A DNA stretch of 64,000 bases, from the NCBI RefSeq assembly GCF_965638725.1, contig NC_134949.1, positions 48,078,151 through 48,142,150 on the forward strand. Direction: 5' to 3'. A program made the translations under genes and the position numbers. The stretch's first letter is position 1. Each line of letters starts with the position of its first letter. Of this stretch, positions 23,617-45,500 are shown piece by piece. The notes under the pieces are model-generated. The model made no database searches, was not told where the DNA came from, and saw only the letters and a list, made by a program, of their open reading frames with translations. The DNA comes from Aptenodytes patagonicus. Its lineage: Eukaryota > Chordata > Aves > Sphenisciformes > Spheniscidae.

Positions 23617-24711
23617 TGTATTGGGTTTGCGTGGCAAGGTTTTGATAGCGGGGGGGGCTACAGCACTGGTTTCTGTGAGAAGCTGCTAGAAGCCTCCCCC
23701 ATGTCTGATAGAGCCAATGCCAGCCGGCTCCAAGATGGACCCGCTGCTGGCCAAAGCTGAGCCCATCAGCGATGGTGGTCATGCCTCTGTGATAATGTAT
23801 TTCAGAAGGGGGAAAAAAACTGTGCAGAACAACAGAAGCAGAGAGAGGAGTGAGAATATGTGAGAGAAACAACGCTGCAGACACCAAGGAGAGTGGAGAA
23901 GGAGGGGGAGGAGGTGCTCCAGGCGCCGGAGCAGCGATTCCCCTGCAGCCCGTGGTGAAGACCATGGTGAGGCAGGCTGTCCCCCTGCAGCCCGTGGAGG
24001 TCCACGGTGGAGCAGATCTCCACCTGCAGCCCGTGGAGGACCCCACGCCGGAGCAGGTGGATGCGCCCAAGGGAGGCTGTGACCCCGTGGAGAGCCGGCG
24101 CTGGAGCAGGCTCCTGGCAGGACCTGTGGACCCGCGGAGAGAGGAGCCCACGCTGGAGCAGGTTTGGCGGCAGGACTTGTGACCCCGTGGGGGACCCACG
24201 CTGGAGCAGCTTGTGGAGAACTGCAGCCCGTGGGAAAGGCTCAGGTTGGAGAAGTCTGTGGAGGACTGTCTGCCGTGGGAGGGACCCCACGCTGGAGCAG
24301 GGGCAGAGCGTGAGGAGTCCTCCCCCTGAGGAGGAAGGAGCGGCAGAGACAACATGTGATGAACTGACCACAACCCCCATTGCCTGTCCCCCTGCACTGC
24401 TCGGGGGAGGAGGTAGAGAAATCGGGAGTGAAGTTGAGCCCAGGAAGTAGGGAGAGGTGGGGGGGAAGGTGTTTTAAGATTCAGTTTTTATTTTCTCATT
24501 ATCCTACTCTGATTTATCTGGTGATAAATTAAACTAACTTCCTCAAGTCAAGTCTGTTTTGCCCATGAGGGTAATTGCTGAGTCATCTTCCTGTCCTTAT
24601 CATGATTCACGAGCCTTTCGTTATATTTTCTCTCCCTTGTCCAGCTGAGGAGGGCAGTGATAGAGTGGCTTTGGTGGGCACCTGATGTCCAGCCAGGGTC
24701 AACCCACCACA
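23617..24711 (+). mobile_element. Solo LTR of an endogenous retrovirus (about 1,095 bp), GC-rich with internal repeats
   Basis: The element begins TGTATTGGGTTTGCGTGGCA and ends AACCCACCACA, so it has the TG...CA termini of a retroviral LTR. A near-perfect 5-bp duplication (TAAAG/TGAAG) flanks it. It stands out sharply from the AT-rich surroundings. A weak TATA-like stretch lies near 23793, and a degraded poly(A) signal (GATAAATT, expected AATAAA) is at about 24521. These set U3, R and U5 in plus-strand order. Between about 23,920 and 24,300 it holds a run of related short units built on CTGCAGCCCGTGG and CCACGCTGGAGCAG. No internal retroviral sequence follows, so it is a solo LTR left after recombination. 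From memory it matches an LTR type common in avian genomes, but I do not assign a family name. Open frames of up to 284 codons across it are by-products of its stop-poor composition. Confidence 0.85.
23926..24300 (+). repeat. Degenerate tandem repeats inside the LTR
   Basis: Within U3/R, about seven or eight related units of roughly 35-50 bp recur. The shared cores are CTGCAGCCCGTGG (for example near 23941, 23985 and 24025) and CACGCTGGAGCAG (for example near 24150, 24195 and 24288). Unit lengths vary and the copies have diverged. The array explains the high GC content and the stop-poor frames on both strands. Confidence 0.8.
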
Positions 24712-27700: not shown

Positions 27701-30600
27701 TCAAATAGCTATGACTCCAGCCAAAAAGTTTTAAAAGTCATGAACCATAGGGGAAAGTGCGTATCATATCTCCCAGGAGTGACCGCTTCAGAGGAAAACA
27801 GGCAAACGGGACTGAAGATTAAACTATTTCATCAGACATTAAAAACAAAAACAAACAAACAAAACAACAACAACAACAACAAATCACATATCTGAAGACT
27901 TGTTGAATTCTAAACCTACAACTGGAGTTTTAAAAAAGTTTGCTCTTAATCATCTAATAGAGAGGATTTAGTGGCCACCCTCAATTCCAAATGGGGAGAC
28001 GCATTTCCAGGAAAATATGATATCTGAAGAAACTAGAAAGCCTGCCTGGGCAGCCATAGGAGAGTCACTGCTCTGATCTTTTCAAAACAAAGAAAGCTGA
28101 TTACTGGATGGGTTTACTCTGGTAACATCCAAATTCAGTAGTTTGGAATGGCAATTAAAATAATTCTATAATTGCTTTTAATGACATTTTTAGACATCGA
28201 GATCATCTTCCCATAATGCTGGCATTTTGTGGACTCCAAAACTGAAATATTCTCCAGACTACATCTGTGTCCAGATTGTGTGAACACTAGCAGGTAAGAA
28301 TTTTAGCATGAATGTGAATTCTTTTTTTCCCTCTATTTGTCAGAGATTCTAAATCAATGATTTTTTTGAAGGCGGTTCTAATTACTGAATATTTTATTCT
28401 ACATTACAGATTTGCCTGCATAAGATTAAAAAGAAAAGTAAAGAAGGTCATTATTTGGTTAAGCAGCTGAAAAAATTCAGGCAATTCACATCAAGACTTA
28501 ATTTGCATGAAAGTTCAGGGTACTTTGGAATAGTAGCCTGACACTTGGTCTGCTGCCAAAGCACATATTTCTGTTTACCTTTTCTTTTTCATTAAAAAAT
28601 GCTTGTCAGTATAAGGAAAACACAGAATGTTAGAAACCAGAAATAACTGCACAAAGCATTGCTGAATCTGTCCAAGATCCCTATCAGGAACATCAGGTAT
28701 GATCTACCTCTTGCAAGAGTGACAGGAATGTTGCATTATTAATTGCTATCTCTGTTTCTTTAGAATAACTGACAACAGAAGTAATATTTGCAATTTAAGA
28801 AAAGCAAATGATGTTAATAGCAGTGGATTAATAGTGATTTGTCATTGGATTTGAATAAGCAAGGCACATTTATTTTAATCTTATAAATAAACATTTTGCT
28901 GGGACAGAGATCTATTCTTACCATTTTTTGCCACTTAAAGAGAATCTATAACTAAAATCTAGAATGCTTATTTTATTAAAAGAAGAGTTAATTAATAAGG
29001 CATTTATACTGATTAGATAAAGCCAGAATTTCCTTAGCTTTCATAGGTTTTCACTTAGCTTTTCTTACAGAATATTAGACAGGACAACAAATTGCTCAAA
29101 TTCTTTCATCTCATAAGAAATCTGAAAGTAATGCACCCCTCTCTTCAGAAGCTAGAGATGAAACTAGTATTATTAAAAAGACTTTTAGCAATAATAGAAG
29201 AAATTATAATAATAAATTCTCCAGCTTGACTCCCTTAAACATAAAGAATACATTTTCCTTTCCTAAGTAAAATAACCTAGACTATTCAAAAGACTTCAAT
29301 GAGATAAAAATCAGACTTTTCCATTTATTTTGTTCTTTTGAGGCATTTCTATGGGTAACATCTGGTTAAATCAGCCTCCTGGTATTCTAACCAAACATGG
29401 TCCAATATAACATAGTGATTTCTAGCAACAAAACCATTACTAGAAGTAGTACTTACCTTTCTACAAATTCAAAGAAAGAAAGTAAAAAGGCTCTTATGTA
29501 GCTGTACTTTATCACATGTAAATGCTAGCAAATTGCATTAATAACTGGAAGTGTTTGCCCATCATCACTGTATTAAGAGAAACTGAAGAACTGTTTACTG
29601 ATTTTTACTTTAGGAAATACCTACTTACTATTTAAAATCTTAAGAATGCCTGACTCAAAATGGGTAAAACTCGCAATGACATTGCCTTTCCTTCCACACT
29701 TGGTAAATGTGTTACAGCTCAGGCCCACAGAAATGAAATGACTCGTGTCTCCCCGGTCCAGCGCTCCCCACAGCACCCTGGGCGCGGGAACACCCTGAAG
29801 GAGAACATCCATCTCACAGACAATCTGGCCGCTCTGCACAGGGTTTCCTTCAATCTGCCAGTTTACACCATGTAACCAAAAGGACAGAAAGTTTTCTTGG
29901 AAATTTAACATCAGAAGAACATTTTTCATTGGGTTCCCTCCCCCCCAGATCATAAATGACATTGCATTGCTTGACTCTCAAATGCTCTCTGCAATTAGCA
30001 GTAAGCCACTGAGTTTCTGATAAGGAGATGTTAAGTCTGAATGACATATATTTGTTTTCAATTTAAATCCTAAATTTGCTATTAATCTGATATTAATCCT
30101 AATCTTAGTCTGATATTAATCAATTCTGTCTTGCCACTTCTTTCGATTGGCAGCTGAGCATTTCTATATGTATTTGTTGATTAACTAAATGCTTGACAGT
30201 AATTCTAAACTACAGTTTACATTCTGCCTTTTCCCACTACAGAAACAAAATTTACAAACTTCAAATTAAAAATAAATCCATGGTACACCAAGAGGCTCCA
30301 CTGAAGTTTTTCTATCTCCACTCACTTTTCTTCATTGTTTCTTAGGCGAAGATTAAGCCTGATGGTTTATAAAGCAAAGTTGGTATTGAAAGCTCAATAT
30401 TTTTTGGTTAGAGGTATGTAAAAAGAAGTTTCATTATTTCATTTGTAACTGACTTTAAGCAGTACAGAGTGAAACTGAGAAAAGCCAATTCAGTTAACAT
30501 GCCAATCAATAGAAAAGCTTTTGCTTCACAGATATTGGTTAATTTGTTTCATAAAAGACATTTCTGGAATAAATGTTCTGAGGAATCCAAGGATTTTTAA
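24712..30600. other. AT-rich unique stretch; one GC-richer patch
   Basis: Nearly 6 kb without a supportable gene. It contains an A-rich/CAA simple stretch at 27840-27882, a T-rich run near 27475-27500 and the GC-richer patch at about 29650-29870 described under findings. A strong splice-donor-like GCAG/GTAAGAA lies at 28290-28300. The short open frames have no recognised domains. Confidence 0.5.
27839..27882. repeat. A-rich simple repeat (AAAC / CAA units)
   Basis: A run of AAAAAC and AAAC units passing into CAA repeats ((CAA)5-6 at about 27863-27882). It has no flanking element to explain it as a retroposon tail. Confidence 0.85.
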
Positions 30601-31402
30601 GAATCATAGAATCATAGAATCATTAAGGTTGGAAAAGACCTCTAAAATCATCGAGTCCAACTGTCAACCCAACACCACCATGCCCACTAAACCATGTCCC
30701 TAAGCGCCTCATCTACTCGTCTTTTAAATACCTCCAGGGATGGGGACTCAACCACTTCCCTGGGCAGCCTGTTCCAATGTTTAACCACTCTTTCAGTAAA
30801 GAAATTTTTCCTCATGTCCAATCTAAACCTCCCCAGCCGCAACTTGAGGCCATTTCCTCTCGTCCTACCGCTAGTTACTTGGGAGAAGAGACCGACACCC
30901 ACCTGGCTACAACCTCCTTTCAGGTAGTTGTAGAGAGCGATGAGGTCTCCCCTCAGCCTCCTCTTCTCCAGGCTAAACAACCCCAGTTCCCTCAGCTGCT
31001 CCTCATAAGACTTGTTCTCCAGACCCCTCACCAGCTTCATTGCCCTTCTCTGGACACACTCCAGCACCTCAACGTCCTTGTTGTAGTGAGGGGCCCAAAA
31101 CTGAACACAGGATTCGAGGTGCGGCCTCACTAGTGCCGAGTAGAGGGGCACGATCACTTCCCTGCTCCTGCTGGCCACACTATTTCTGATCCAGGCCAGG
31201 ATGCCATTGGCCTTCTTGGCCGCCTGGGCACACTGCCGGCTCATATTCAGCCGGCTGTCGACCAACACCCCCAGGTCCTTTTCCGACAGGCAGCTTCCCA
31301 GCCTCTCTTCCCCAAGCCTGTAGCGTTGCATGGGGTTGTTGTGGCTGAAGTGCAGGACCCGGCACTTGGCCTGGTTGAATCTCATACAGTTGGCCTCGGC
31401 CC
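30601..31402 (-). mobile_element. CR1 LINE, young 5'-truncated copy (about 800 bp)
   Basis: A CR1 copy on the minus strand. Its 3' terminus at the left shows two to three clean octamer repeats (AATCATAG units at 30602-30625), followed by the 3' UTR signature AAGGTTGGAAAAGACC. Its 5' end is abrupt at about 31402, inside ORF2 (GGCCGAGGCCAACTG on the minus strand). By eye it is roughly 95% identical to the plus-strand CR1 at 41.8-42.6 kb, so both belong to one recently active subfamily. The remaining ORF2 frame is unbroken, see the separate entry. Such 5' truncation is the normal outcome of target-primed reverse transcription. Confidence 0.96.
30687..31385 (-). pseudogene. CR1 ORF2 C-terminal fragment (232 aa, open frame)
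   Basis: This is the end of the CR1 ORF2 protein: the tail of the reverse-transcriptase domain plus the C-terminal region. It begins [13 protein letters not shown], which follows the catalytic palm in full-length CR1, and continues through [52 protein letters not shown] and [17 protein letters not shown]. It ends [11 protein letters not shown]. The endonuclease and the catalytic YADD-type region are absent because the copy is 5'-truncated. The frame has no stop or frameshift over 232 codons, which points to recent insertion. The start Met is internal to ORF2, so this is not a gene start. No promoter is expected, and I infer that the fragment is inert. Confidence 0.9.
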
Positions 31403-38842: not shown

Positions 38843-41744
38843 TGCCGCCAACCGTGTGATTGCCTCTTCTTACACTGGATATGGAACTTACCTTACTGCA
38901 ATCCAGTTCAGGTGGCTAAGTGGAACAAAGACATAAGGTGATTCCCCCCCCCCGATTGGTTTTCTGTTGTGACTTGAACCCCCTTATCATGTGATCAGAT
39001 GAGCACCAAAAGTGCTTGATGGAAAATTCTTCATTGAATTCTGCATGTAACAATCACCTTTAACTCTCTGTATACATACATGCATGCATATTAAGATTTT
39101 TATGTTTTATCTATATATATATATTTGTATATGAATGCACATATTACATCTGGTACATGCAAATAATCAACACATAAAACCCTCAGATCATCACAACAGC
39201 AAAGCAAATCTCAAGAAAGTTTTGTCTCTGTTTACGTATCAAAACTTCACAGTGCTCTTAATGAAAAATATAAATAACACTTTCTGGTTTGAAATGGAAA
39301 GAGGTGACAAATACCCCACGGAATTTTCTGTGCAATAAAAATAGTAATTTTAACCTGAGATCTATTTACTAGTTAAATGAAAGTCTATCACTGCATTATT
39401 TGAACATTGTAGATATGAAATGGTGAAGCAGCATTATTTTGAAGATAAAGAGAAATATTTAGTTATGCAGCTATTTCAAGCCATTGAGGCAATCTCATTA
39501 TTTTCATCCTGGCTCTGTAATCTGTACCCATGATATCAAATCTTAAATTTAAAAAAAAATCAACATTCTTATTACTTTAGCTTGTGACTCTCAAGTTGCA
39601 GAACACTGTTTAGGAGGAAAAAAAATCAATTTTGAGTCACAATTAACAGAAGTGAGTTCAACAAGGTTGGATTATAGACCTGCAAAATCTCCAGAGCAGC
39701 TGGATAACATTTTATTGCATATGAATGTTTCTTAACTTTGCAAATATACTATCTGACATGAGTTTTCAACCTTCAGAAATGTTACATCCATTAAATTGTT
39801 TGATTTTACCAATAAGGAAGCACTGGCTCCATTATTGTTTTTAAATAAACTATTATAGGATTATTCATTATTTATAGATATTTTACCTGTAACTGGAAGT
39901 TTTTATGCCTAATACAGTGGGTTATCTATTTCAAAAAATGCTGAGATTTAGCAACAGTACAAGTGCATGCACAAATGGGCAATTAATAAAAAGGGAAATT
40001 TATAGTCTTCATGTAATTCAGAAGCCCCCTGCTATGATGTCCTGTACCTTAGCCTTTCCCTCCCTCCTTTTTGTACCTCTTCTAAATCTCGTTTTCCTTG
40101 TCTCAGTAAGCAATTTTTTGTGGGTTACAGAGACACATTTTAAGGACCTGTAAGGACTTGTTCTTCTAGAAGAGCAAAGGGGGAGGAGAGCGAGAGCAGA
40201 GGAGCTGTCTCTGGTGTGTGTTGTACACGTGGGCATCTTAAAGGGAAACCCATGTTATACACCAGAAAAATCACACTCAGAGTATTATTTAAAAGCACCC
40301 CCAGCAGCCAAAATATCAGCACACAAAAAATAGCTCCATTAACACACAAAGTACCACCATAGCTGGTCAGCCATCCTGAAGGCAGATTGGCAACATCTAG
40401 AAGATGGGGTCATGAGCTATGAACAACAAATATTTTCATGTATTTATTAATGCTGTCATTGCTCCAGTCTAAAGAAACAAAAGTAAAGTCAATGACAGAT
40501 CTTTTTCTCCATCTAAATTCATGTTCATTTTCTGCATTCCCAACGTATTTGACTGCTTTATTTTAAAGTGTTAGATTTACTATGTAAATTTGGATTCAGT
40601 TTGGTTTTGTGAGAGCAGCAGTCTGTAAGCCATTATAATACCTGTAATGCATTCTTGTTTGTTTCCACCTTGTCATGCACAGAGATCAAGACCACTTTCA
40701 GATGAAAAAATTGGTAGAAAGCATCGATTTTGAATGCAGAATTTATTGTTAAATGCAGCTTGTTGAAGAGCTATAAATTTTCACTAAAGGCTACTCAAGT
40801 CATGCCTAAAGGTACAGTTTTGACAAAAAGTGAATCAAGAGAACCTGTCATTGAACTGAAATATAAACAGCACCAAAAGACATAATCTAAAAAAAAAAAA
40901 AAGAGAAAGGATTTGCTCATATACAATTGGACCAATAAATCTAAACACATTCAGTTAATGAGTTTCTAAAGGGAAGACATTAATGTAAATCTAAACTTTC
41001 TAGAATTTCAGGATGAGAGAAGAGGGCAGTCTTTCAGTTTTCCTCAGCTGTACTTAAAAACTGTGTTTTCTGTTGAAGACACTGCACTTTATTACTAGCT
41101 TGCTATATTATTAACAGAATAATCTTTTAATATGTTTAAAGCCAGAAATTCTGTCAGCACAGTAATTACAAGGATCTTACTTATTCCAAACAACATTGTA
41201 GGTCACGGGACAAAATGTGAATTTATTATTCCAAAGACATAAAAATCCTGATTTGTTTTATGTAAAAAAGGGTATCGACAACACTCAGGAAGTTCACAAA
41301 GTGTACTTCCCCTATGCACCCATGTAATAGAACAATGGAATAATTTAAAGTGGCACCAATTCAAATAATCAACCAGAATATAATATATTTGCTGTTCAGT
41401 GAAGGACCTTTTCACAGATTTCTTCTCTACTTAGATTTCATTCATTTGGGCTTATTAGCTATATACTGTCATAAGGCAAGAGCGCTGAATAGAATTTATG
41501 AAGCTGATTACCAGACGCTTTAAAAGTCACCCAGTCTCTTTTTCACGCATAGGAGAGAATTATTAGCACTAGCATAACTAGCGTATGTTAAGGGATACTC
41601 TATTTTTTGGCTGTGTTACGAAAGGCAGCCTCTGAACACCAACCACTTTAAAAGTAATTCATATTTGATAAAGCTTGACACAAAAAAAAAAGTAGCTAAC
41701 TTATTATTTTTAGCTTTTTTATGTTATATAAACACTATCAGCGA

Positions 41745-41750
41745 GTCTCT

Positions 41751-41789
<39 letters not shown>

Positions 41790-41818
41790 AGTTGGTGGTT
41801 CGAGCCCACCCAGGGACG
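41745..41818 (+). tRNA. tRNA-Asn (anticodon GTT), fused to a CR1 body
   Basis: This 74-nt unit folds as a complete cloverleaf. The 7-bp acceptor stem pairs GTCTCTG with CAGGGAC, including one G-U pair, and G is the discriminator base. The D-arm region reads GCGCAATCGGTTAGCGC. The anticodon stem TTCGG/CCGAA encloses loop CTGTTAA, giving anticodon GTT at 41779-41781, read as asparagine. The T arm is GGTGG-TTCGAGC-CCACC. Both internal pol III promoter boxes are intact (A box TGGCGCAATCGG, B box GGTTCGAGCCC). A TTTTTT terminator lies 9 nt downstream (41828-41833). As I recall the vertebrate sequence, the only difference is one base in the variable loop. No CCA is encoded, so this is not a copy of a mature tRNA. 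It may be a functional gene or the head of a tRNA/CR1 chimeric insertion, because CR1 sequence starts at the terminator. Confidence 0.93.
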
Positions 41819-41827
41819 CAGCACAAC

Positions 41828-41833
41828 TTTTTT
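41828..41833 (+). terminator. Oligo-T pol III terminator at the tRNA/CR1 join
   Basis: Six T in a row, 9 nt after the tRNA discriminator base, fit a standard pol III terminator. CR1 homology starts within or immediately after this tract: the sister copy at 30.6 kb shares TTCAGCCACAACAACCCCAT. The last two T may therefore belong to either part. Confidence 0.8.
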
Positions 41834-42574
41834 CAGCCACAACAACCCCATGCAGTGCTACAGGCTTGGGGAAGAGTGGCTGGAAAGCTGCCTGGCAGAG
41901 AAGGACCTGGGGGTGCTGGTCGACAGCCGGCTGAACATGAGCCGGCAGTGTGCCCAGGCGGCCAAGAAGGCCAATGGCATCCTGGCCTGTATCAGCAATA
42001 GTGTGGCCAGCAGGAGCAGGGAACTGATCGTGCCCCTGTACTCGGCCCTGGTGAGGCCGCACCTCGAATACTGTGTTCAGTTTTGGGCCCCTCACTACAA
42101 GAAGGACGTCGAGGTGCTGGAGCGTGTCCAGAGAAGGGCAACGAGGCTGGTGAGGGGTCTGGAGAACAAGTCTTATGAGGAGCAGCTGAGGGAACTGGGG
42201 TTGTTTAGCCTGCAGAAAAGGAGGCTGAGGGGAGACCTCATCGCTCTCTACAACTACCTGAAAGGAGGTTGTAGCGAGGTGGGTGTCGGTCTCTTCTCCC
42301 AAGTAACTAGCGGTAGGACGAGAGGAAATGGCCTCAAGTTGCGCCAGGGGAGGTTTAGATTGGACATGAGGAAAAATTTCTTTACTGAAAGAGTGGTGAA
42401 ACATTGGACCAGGCTGCCCAGGGAAGTGGTGGAGTCCCCATCCCTGGAGGTATTTAAAAGACGTGTAGATGAGGCACTTAAGGACATGGTTTATTGGGCA
42501 TGGTGGTGTTGGGTTGCTGGTTGGACTCAATGATCTTAGAGGTCTTTTCCAACCTCAATGATTCTATGATTCTA
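41832..42574 (+). mobile_element. CR1 LINE, young 5'-truncated copy joined to the tRNA
   Basis: A plus-strand CR1 copy in the same orientation as the tRNA. It starts at CAGCCACAACAACCCCATGC, inside ORF2, runs through the ORF2 C-terminus (frame 41850-42533, unbroken) and ends with two clean octamers, ATTCTATGATTCTATA, at 42561-42575. By eye it is about 95% identical to the minus-strand copy at 30.6-31.4 kb, which extends about 75 bp further in the 5' direction. The 5' break here coincides with the T tract following the tRNA. There is no long target duplication, though TATA at 41727-41730 (before the tRNA leader) and at the 3' end (about 42572-42575) could be a 4-bp one. Confidence 0.95.
41850..42533 (+). 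pseudogene. CR1 ORF2 C-terminal fragment (227 aa, open frame)
   Basis: This is the end of the CR1 ORF2 polyprotein beyond the reverse-transcriptase catalytic centre. It begins [19 protein letters not shown], which aligns internally with the 232-residue fragment at 30.7-31.4 kb. It continues [76 protein letters not shown] and [18 protein letters not shown]. It has no stop or frameshift. The final residues after [10 protein letters not shown] differ from the sister copy because a base change moved the stop codon downstream. It lacks an endonuclease and palm motif. The apparent start codon is an internal Met, and translation is not expected. Confidence 0.9.
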
Positions 42575-45500
42575 TATTTTATTAGAATTTTCATGCAAAC
42601 TATGAATTAAATGTCTGTGACCTCAGGCCCTTAGATAGAAAAAGACCATGTAATTCATCACCTACCACAAATGTCTTACAGTACTATAAAGAAGATTAAA
42701 AATAAGGTGCAATTTGAACATTTGTCCATTGTTTCACAAGAAATATTTGCTTTACATATTTTTTCTATACCTAGGTCCCTACTGTTACACTGAGATATTA
42801 GTGACTGTCATCTAGCCTTGGCAAAATCATCAATATCAAGAAATAGGCAACACAGTTTATTTAAAGACATCTTACAGTGACTAGTTCAGACTTAATGGTT
42901 CCACTTGTATAAACTGAGGTTTGAAAAGACGATTACCACACTCAATACTTTGGGTATGGATTTACTTTTAAACTGCATCCTCTTGAATGCTTGACTGGGA
43001 AGAAAGGAGCTATTCCTTTGGAATATTGTCATTCAAGCTAACGTACACAAGATATTCCAAAAACTAATGGAATAGAGACCTTTTTCCATGAAAGACTGAA
43101 CAGGCCATTTTTAAATTGGAAAAGTTCTTCAGAAAAAAAAGAAAAAAAAAAAGGAATCAAAACATTTATGAATAGTGGAATTTAGTAGACAGCACACTTA
43201 GTATAAGTATTCTACTATTCTCTTCATACCATATATAACTATTAAAATGGAAAAGAACCTGGGTGCAGAAAAATCCCAATAAGCTGAAACATTTGAACCA
43301 TTCCAGCAAAGTTAAGATTATTGGTTGTCCATTTGAGTTTTTACCCTGCAAATAACTAGTGTAGAAAATCCAGTGGTTCACAGGACTGAAATCTCAACAA
43401 CTATTGCAAAAGAGCTAATAATTTCAATTATTTTTTCCAACTTATAATGCCATGTATTACATTTGCCAATGAGGAAGTCTCTGAAGGTTTAATTATCTAA
43501 ATTTGTGCCTGACTTGAGAGACAAACCAAGAGGTCATTAAATACAAACTAATGAATTAATTACTCTTCAACTTCTTCAAAGCAAAAAAAGAGAATCACCT
43601 ACAGTTCTTTTCTGTTTGTTTACAATGCTTCAACATCAGCCACATATGTGAATTACAAGGAAATCTGAGACAAGAAAATGGTGACTTTTGAGCAAAAAGG
43701 AGGTGTAAGAAGCAAGTAGTAAACTAAAGATATACTTTGGTTTGGTTTTAAATCTTCATGAGTAGTTTTATTTCTTCATGTGGTTCTGGAAAGAATGGAA
43801 GGAAACTAACATTATGTGCTACTGAAAGGATGAATATTTCCTCTATTTCATATCATTTCCAAATAAAGTTTGTTAGACTTATTAAATCAAATTTAAATGA
43901 AATCAAATTAAATTAAAAATCTAAATATTAACCACAGCCTCAATTCCCAAGCCCACTTGGAAAGCTGGATGGATTTTCCTAAGACAAACAGATTCTTGCA
44001 TGGATTGCAAATCTTCATGAAATAAAAAGAATTTCTAGTGAAAGTGTTTCCAGGGTATGGTTATTTTGCAGGTAAATGCAGAAATATAATTCTGATGGGG
44101 GTGTGCATGTGTCTTTGTTGGTTGATTTGCTATAGATCAATTATTTTTAAATATTTTGATGTGCTTCTTCACAAAAACATCCCAATCTTCACCCATTTAT
44201 TTGAGTAAAGATTTTGTTTTTAACATTCCTAATCGTGTTCTTAATGATCTCTGTAGGTAAAAGGTATGTGTTTAAAAGCCATATCTGAAATAAAAAAACA
44301 GAAGGAAAGAGTCAGTACAAACAGCTATTTGAAACTCCAGCACTTGTATTTGTATGTGATAGTGTGTTTATGTGCAAAAGAAGTCTGCTGGTTTAGGTAT
44401 GAGTGCTACACAAGTTCATTTCAATCACATTTAGTTTCTTCATTCTGTTTCATTCTGAAGGAACAAATTCATTCTGATCATTTCATCTATGGCTGAGAAA
44501 ATTGAACTCTAACAGATTGCAGCCCCAGAAGAAATTGCTTGGTGTTAGACCTGCAAGTAATTGTTAAACTCCCACATGCCTCAGGGGAGAAAGCATGTCC
44601 TTGATTAGAAAAACAAGTAGGGGGAGGGAGGGGATGAGAGAAACTATGCTTGTACTTAATGGGTATGGTAGCATTGTGTATTAAATGCTCTGGACAACTA
44701 AGTAATATTTTCTATTTTTAACTAGAATATTAATTCATATTTAAAGTAAATATTAATATTTAGAGCTTGTACTTTTTTCATACTGAAAGGTAGATATTCT
44801 TTTAATACAAAATGTGCTGTTAGTGAGCAGATAAACACACAATGCTAAGACACCTACTTCTATTCATTCTTATTCTCATTAAATTATATACTTCTGACAA
44901 CTCAGCAGTGAAGACAAGTTTAGTTGTTCTCTCCTGAAAAAAAATATATTGCTGAAAATTCAATCCATGGTAACAAGAACATTTTTATGGTTTCTAAGAT
45001 TGCAAAGCATATGATTATTGAAACTTGTGTGAAGGAGAACATTTTTCATATTTCTGATTATATTCCAAGTGAGACTCATTTACACACCAGTCAGCATGAA
45101 TGACAGAAGGAGAGTTGCAAAGGCCTAAATACATTCAAGACTCAAGATTTGTATGGGATCTTTCTTTGAACACAAAACTGTAAGTGATGTGTATACTGTG
45201 GCCATAATGATTTTTAGTTAATTAAAGGTATTTAGTGTTCATATTTGAAGATGGAAACAGTGCAATTATACTAGATCCCTAGAAATCTTTGTTGCTATTG
45301 AACAGAAGATATATAGCATAAATATTCTTGAACTTTCAGACTTTGACAAGTTAAACATGTGGGCAGAAGAGGAAGTAAATTTATGGGCTAGAGTTCCACC
45401 TAGCTTAGAAAGCTTCAAATAGTAACAGATGAAGCTCCTCTCAAAGCTAAGGAAGACTCTCTTTTTTCAATTTTTTTTTCCCCTAGATCACTAAATCATT

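Follow-up and report, generated by a model that had tools for sequence, protein, structure and literature searches.

A tRNA-Asn precursor joined to a young CR1 retroposon in Aptenodytes patagonicus: a probable template switch from LINE RNA to a Pol III transcript

Introduction

How does a complete tRNA come to run, without a single intervening base, into the body of a truncated LINE? tRNA-headed SINEs are thought to originate in the transfer of a LINE enzyme from its LINE RNA to a tRNA, and by the time the founders of such families come into view, amplification has normally blurred the junction. A locus of Aptenodytes patagonicus at which a tRNA-Asn(GTT) is followed directly by a young CR1 retroposon raises the question afresh. 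It lies within a 64-kb stretch of DNA (the window; C1:48078151-48142150 of a 1.352-Gb assembly of 618 contigs), and positions given here without a contig are those of the window. The original prediction offered two origins for the pair: the CR1 reverse transcriptase exchanged its CR1 RNA template for a pre-tRNA not yet processed, or a CR1 landed in the terminator of a tRNA gene already present. It also saw in the product a possible precursor state of a SINE.

Results

Structure of the locus

The sole tRNA of the window is a tRNA-Asn(GTT) on the plus strand, found by both ARAGORN and Rfam, the latter with 67.7 bits against a gathering score of 29; we place its end at 41818, whereas ARAGORN places it at 41819. 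The tRNA continues through its trailer and a T6 run into a 5'-truncated CR1, all in one orientation and with no extra bases, and the gapless arrangement first described is confirmed. The bounds initially proposed, 41741 to 42574, captured the pair, but a 6-nt leader takes the start to about 41739, and the end lies at about 42575. The features are as follows.

41739-41744, plus strand: pre-tRNA 5' leader, CAGCGA, the same as in the source gene; 5' boundary of the insertion
41745-41818, plus strand: tRNA-Asn(GTT), full cloverleaf with A and B boxes
41819-41827, plus strand: pre-tRNA 3' trailer, CAGCACAAC, where the source gene reads CAGCGCAAC
41828-41833, plus strand: T6, the junction of the two templates, with 4-5 T's from the pre-tRNA U-tail and the remainder from CR1
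41832-42575, plus strand: 5'-truncated CR1 LINE, comprising the C-terminal part of ORF2 and the 3' UTR
42561-42575, plus strand: CR1 3' microsatellite, ATTCTATG-ATTCTAT, which conforms to the octamer ATTCTRTG

The first C of the leader (C41739) could match the source by chance. With its intact structure and both internal promoter boxes, the window copy may constitute an additional tRNA gene copy.

The source gene

A genome query with 41729-41833 yielded seven tRNA-Asn loci, all seven candidates having been scored in a search that more diverged copies may escape. The comparison with the species' own tRNA-Asn genes that had been suggested at the outset was productive: the best non-self locus, C1:203146685-203146778, which lies on the same contig 155 Mb off, corresponds to window 41739-41832 with 2 mismatches in 94. 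The leader CAGCGA shows no differences, the tRNA differs at one base (41790 in the variable loop, G in the source and A in the window), the trailer also differs at one base (41823), and the T run is T5 followed by G in the source and T6 followed by CAGCC in the window. The probability of such agreement by base composition is 1e-4 for the leader and 1.7e-7 for 13 of the 14 trailer and T bases. Beyond the 6 nt ahead of the tRNA on one side and the T run on the other, the similarity ceases, and the window flanks (500 bp 5' and 1000 bp 3') gave no blastn match at E 0.01 to the 10 kb around the source gene. Since nothing outside the leader-to-T-run stretch is common to the two loci, the shared piece is bounded like a Pol III transcript. 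With the transcript ends of the source gene taken from the DNA sequence, its bounds are those of the Pol III primary transcript, and the tRNA part answers to a single identified gene from the leader through tRNA and trailer to the T run, with nothing from beyond.

The surroundings of the two loci also differ. CpG-rich surroundings are expected for a working tRNA gene, and the source has a GC content of 0.56 and a CpG observed/expected ratio of 0.93 within 500 bp on either side, as against a GC content of 0.33 and ratios of 0.44 and 0.14 in the 500-bp flanks of the window locus.

These comparisons bear on the second of the proposed origins, in which a tRNA-Asn gene was already in place and received a CR1 in its terminator. 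Such an insertion would suit a site that is T-rich on both sides, with a TTTT repeat at 41828-41833 and 42577-42580, and at another locus, L015, a CR1 did insert exactly beside a tRNA-Asn. Yet the nearest tRNA-Asn relative has only transcript-bounded sequence in common with the site, and the AT-rich flanks are unlike those of the source gene. Moreover, rough arithmetic leads us to expect ~0.04 same-strand CR1 starts of any age per genome within a 3-bp tRNA-terminator target, the inputs being 169 tRNA genes per bird (PMC8044554) and more than 200,000 CR1 copies (PMC2169234). We therefore consider an insertion into a pre-existing terminator very improbable.

The CR1 part

In a genome search with 41700-42600, the listed non-self CR1 matches (39, from the best 40 of 4924 candidates) were 96-97% identical, in keeping with the earlier description of the element as young; its family is presumably CR1-E/J-like. 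Thirty of these 39 matches begin at query base 133 (window 41832) and the other nine at 137-139 (41836-41838), and none of the 39 extends upstream of 41832. All seven of the CR1 paralogs that were fetched continue upstream past the point of the junction, with the sequence ...CTGCACTTCGGCC in five and CTGCACTTCAGCC and CTGCACTTGGGCC in one each; their bases at the junction are CACTTCGGCC (five), CACTTCAGCC (one) and CACTTGGGCC (one). The element is thus accompanied by highly identical, dispersed copies reaching further 5', as befits a CR1, and to judge from these copies it is a real and young one. The upstream sequence of the paralogs and the match starts together place the first bases of the CR1 part, TTC, within the T6 run. 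The final one or two T's of the run are on this evidence CR1's own, and T4 or T5 of a U-tail plus one or two CR1 T's would give the observed T6. The CR1 part accordingly starts within the T run, with zero added bases and in sense orientation.

Four other CR1 stretches were found in the window by blastn. The CR1 at 30593-31349 on the minus strand aligns with 94% identity over 757 bases, and here too the match begins at window base 41832. This within-window comparison gives 39 differences in 743, of which 14 are assigned to the junction copy and up to 11 more are ambiguous (14 to 25). Counted against paralogs, the changes on the CR1 side number 9 in 743, these being positions at which at least seven of eight paralogs disagree with the window copy.

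At the protein level, among the best 120 of 8000 scored matches to the CR1 part, those of the Adelie and emperor penguins lead by identity (92%, query coverage 100%), and the top scores belong mostly to the wood stork. Pfam returned no families for eight open reading frames of the window, CR1 parts included. As for the tRNA-CR1 junction appearing as a mispredicted bird protein, the tRNA-encoded peptide motifs searched for occur in none of the 229 proteins among the matches listed (best 120 per list). In viral and prokaryote collections the tRNA-trailer pattern, the tRNA-Asn core pattern and the CR1 3'-end pattern had no matches, and the CR1 protein gave three stretches with no confirmed relative; in phage records only a phage tRNA matched.

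A probable single insertion

The two halves of the locus fit most readily into one chimeric insertion, in which the CR1 reverse transcriptase left the CR1 RNA and continued on the U-tail of a pre-tRNA-Asn that had not been processed; we put the probability of this reading at roughly 0.88. The enzyme would have started target-primed reverse transcription at the 3' end of the CR1 RNA, copied leftward for ~740 nt as far as ...TTCAGCC, shifted to the 3' U-tail of the unprocessed tRNA-Asn precursor and copied it through to its own 5' end, after which the fused product would have been sealed into an AT-rich site. Before the insertion that site would have read ...AAACACTAT joined directly to ATTTTATTAG... 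We infer both that the two parts were made by one event and that the enzyme jumped while reverse transcription was under way, at the cDNA stage. Three features by which template switches of the U6/L1 kind are recognized are present: a small RNA lies 5' of a truncated LINE in the same orientation, the copy of that RNA runs to the natural 3' U-tail, where the LINE takes over immediately, and the flanks of the small-RNA part show no similarity by blastn to those of its source gene. The similar divergence of the two sides, 2 in 94 for the tRNA and 9 in 743 (or 14 to 25 in 743) for CR1, is in rough agreement with one event. Of the two origins first proposed, the template switch is strongly favoured, as the locus shares with the source gene a stretch bounded like the transcript and nothing outside it.

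It could also be imagined that the two parts arrived separately, with a tailless retrocopy of the pre-tRNA inserting first and a CR1 landing later exactly at its 3' end. Pre-tRNA retropseudogenes that lack a LINE part are indeed known for L1 (PMC4476161, citing Schmitz 2004). A two-step history would nevertheless require a second insertion at the exact end of the RNA, in the same orientation and of similar age, and a bare dispersed retrocopy with no neighbouring repeat is seen in none of the seven tRNA-Asn loci; we find this scenario scarcely credible.

In a third scenario the pre-tRNA was ligated to a broken CR1 RNA ahead of reverse transcription. For RNA/LINE-1 chimeras in sense orientation, one report names RNA ligation beside template switching as another route (PMC13174262), and the two routes are indistinguishable from DNA. 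The T count, as weak evidence on the other side, allows one shared T, which would suit a jump by microhomology, although zero overlap fits equally. On balance, ligation strikes us as unlikely.

Three short repeats, TTTTAT (6 bp), TATAT and CTAT, were considered as target-site duplications and rejected, since none of them exceeds what chance would yield in flanks so rich in A and T. CTAT (4 bp) lies at the expected boundaries, with 42572-42575 repeating 41735-41738, and arises in 15% of random sites, as does the 6-bp repeat in another register. The lack of a significant duplication counts against a chimeric insertion as such, but avian CR1 is described as being without target-site duplications (PMC2169234), and for such an element the lack need be no objection.

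Other tRNA-Asn loci

The seven tRNA-Asn loci comprise the source gene, four that run into CR1 in the same orientation (window included) and two copies of a larger repeat (L014 and L015). The search for further tRNA-Asn and CR1 pairs that had been recommended therefore turned up three more loci, while the exact tRNA-trailer string of the window stayed single. At C2:153874185-153874259 (minus strand), the trailer AGCTCCCTTTT is followed by AA and then by a CR1 of another subfamily, the CR1 homology beginning 14 nt past the tRNA. The loci at C2:144550980 and C19:408819 are 92% identical over 165 bp, a stretch that takes in the end of the leader, the tRNA, its trailer and the 3' tail of a CR1, and their flanks are unrelated. 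When this unit was used as a query, 25 of the 34 tail-only matches started at one base, which marks the start of CR1 in the unit. A T4 run is absent from both units. A genome pattern consisting of an intact B box and, 40-70 nt later, the CR1 tail had two exact matches, these same two loci, and none for the reversed control. The pair look like a short, terminator-free, SINE-like unit of which two copies survive.

In L015, the 3' end of a CR1 immediately 5' of the tRNA-Asn directly abuts it, and L014 holds an uninterrupted paralog; at a tRNA-Phe locus, L031, a same-strand CR1 lies 22 nt downstream. CR1 can therefore land beside tRNAs by chance, an observation that counts against the chimera reading. 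A control set was formed by 89 tRNAs in 40 fetched loci, 82 of them non-Asn and mostly drawn from the best 63 of 52,212 candidates; for the tRNA-Phe query, 27 of 27 candidates were scored. A same-strand CR1 within 25 nt of the tRNA 3' end was found for four of the seven tRNA-Asn (L012 being the fourth) versus one of the 82 others (L031), with a Fisher P of 7e-5 in a comparison that is biased, as the non-Asn tRNAs are mostly ordinary genes and some are clustered copies.

The SINE question

The head of the window copy carries A and B boxes, as that of a tRNA-headed CR1 SINE would. The remainder of the unit departs from such a SINE: a T6 at unit position 84 and T4 runs at 337 and 801 interrupt what should be readable by Pol III, the CR1 part is ~743 bp where a short tail would be expected, and in place of many junction copies the tRNA-trailer pattern of the window has one exact match genome-wide (control 0). 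With a single junction string and a terminator between head and body, the locus was rejected as a member of a SINE family, and the suggested precursor state finds no support. Because T6 should stop Pol III and the junction occurs once, the window copy is probably a dead end.

Discussion

The fusion appears to preserve the kind of accident thought to give rise to new mobile elements. Its junction is fresh, the gene that served as its source is identifiable within this genome, and the RNA that was copied is by its bounds the unprocessed precursor with leader and U-tail, which as a template points to a nuclear, pre-processing RNA pool. A fusion made by CR1 is also a route by which birds can gain an intact copy of a tRNA gene. 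Given that fusions with and without a terminator occur in one genome, the loss of the terminator as a gate between chimera and SINE becomes testable.

It is tempting to go further and to speculate, tentatively and with more doubt than conviction, that the CR1 reverse transcriptase has recurrently been drawn to the U-tailed, unprocessed pre-tRNA-Asn in this bird. There would then have been at least three independent fusions, namely the window locus, C2:153874185-153874259 and the ancestor of C2:144550980 and C19:408819. Fusions with the terminator intact would have remained single, and the terminator-free one would have been re-mobilised, leaving two copies as the beginning of a SINE family, so that the terminator at the junction would decide the fate of a would-be SINE.

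No account of a pre-tRNA-Asn/CR1 chimera turned up in the open-licence papers searched, and two tRNA-Asn strings had no match in the literature searched. Related events are already known in the form of U6/L1 chimeras, TguSINE1 and PittSINE. In the U6 snRNA/LINE-1 chimeras (Buzdin, Garcia-Perez; PMC4476161), as in the window, a complete, U-ending Pol III RNA is joined in sense orientation at its U-tail to a 5'-truncated LINE; the window locus differs in having a pre-tRNA with leader and trailer, a CR1 and no significant duplication. The same paper reports such joints for a lizard's L2 and RTE elements as well and mentions a turkey U6 copy adjoining a CR1-like element, which an assembly gap left unresolved (PMC4476161). 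The primate tRNA/LINE-1 chimeras (PMC13174262) likewise have a tRNA joined to a LINE in one insertion, but their 21 loci are mostly antisense tRNA halves attributed to twin priming, whereas the window has a full sense pre-tRNA with its U-tail. Avian tRNA-like sequences in transposable elements (Ottenburghs 2021; Highlight PMC8044554) resemble the window copy as tRNA copies spread by mobile elements, and the Highlight is without CR1 chimeras or junctions. The passerine TguSINE1 (tRNA-Ile) and PittSINE (tRNA-Asp) also combine a tRNA head with a CR1 tail, and for the PittSINE head template switching has been proposed (PMC5729268). These, however, are multi-copy SINEs with a short CR1 tail (PMC5729268), whereas the window locus has an Asn head, a 743-bp body, a terminator between the two, a junction present once and an identifiable source gene.

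Other tRNA sequences beside CR1

Among the tRNA-Asn loci of this genome, two have a tRNA-Asn head that is followed, after a spacer of ~15 nt, by a CR1 3' tail of ~75 bp, and a third also stands before a CR1:

C2:144550980-144551151, SINE-like unit, tRNA-Asn head and CR1 tail (L054)
C19:408818-408979, SINE-like unit, tRNA-Asn head and CR1 tail (L055)
C2:153874185-153874259, minus strand, tRNA-Asn (L012)

L054 and L055 look like two copies of one SINE-like unit; their flanks are unrelated, and no T4 run was found within either unit. At L012 the tRNA-Asn is older, and is followed by AGCTCCCTTTT, AA and then a CR1 that belongs to a different subfamily and has the tRNA's orientation.

Two further tRNA-Asn loci, L014 and L015, are paralogs with 86-88% identity across ~2 kb, the tRNA-Asn being included in the repeat. 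In L015, an insert of ~1 kb with CR1 at its end is placed exactly at the 5' end of the tRNA-Asn, and the uninterrupted counterpart of this insertion site is present in L014, with an overlap of 4 bp.

In the window itself, otherwise AT-rich sequence is interrupted at 23930-24209 by tandem repeats that are rich in GC and have 39- and 52-base periods.

tRNA-Phe and tRNA-Lys copies

Two tRNA-Phe copies, 14 kb apart, have their leader and trailer in common:

C2:1361346, tRNA-Phe copy (L030), same-strand CR1 beginning 124 nt 3' of the tRNA
C2:1375181, tRNA-Phe copy (L031), same-strand CR1 beginning 22 nt 3' of the tRNA

The 13 tRNA-Phe-like copies dispersed across 88740-1744964 of contig C29 look like a repeat array; 12 have an identical score, 90% identity, against the gene on C25. 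Finally, each of the tRNA-Lys(CUU)-like copies (L032, L042-L045) is followed by similar sequence, approximately GGACTGTCGTGGTTTAACCTCAGTC, which we take to resemble the start of an LTR.
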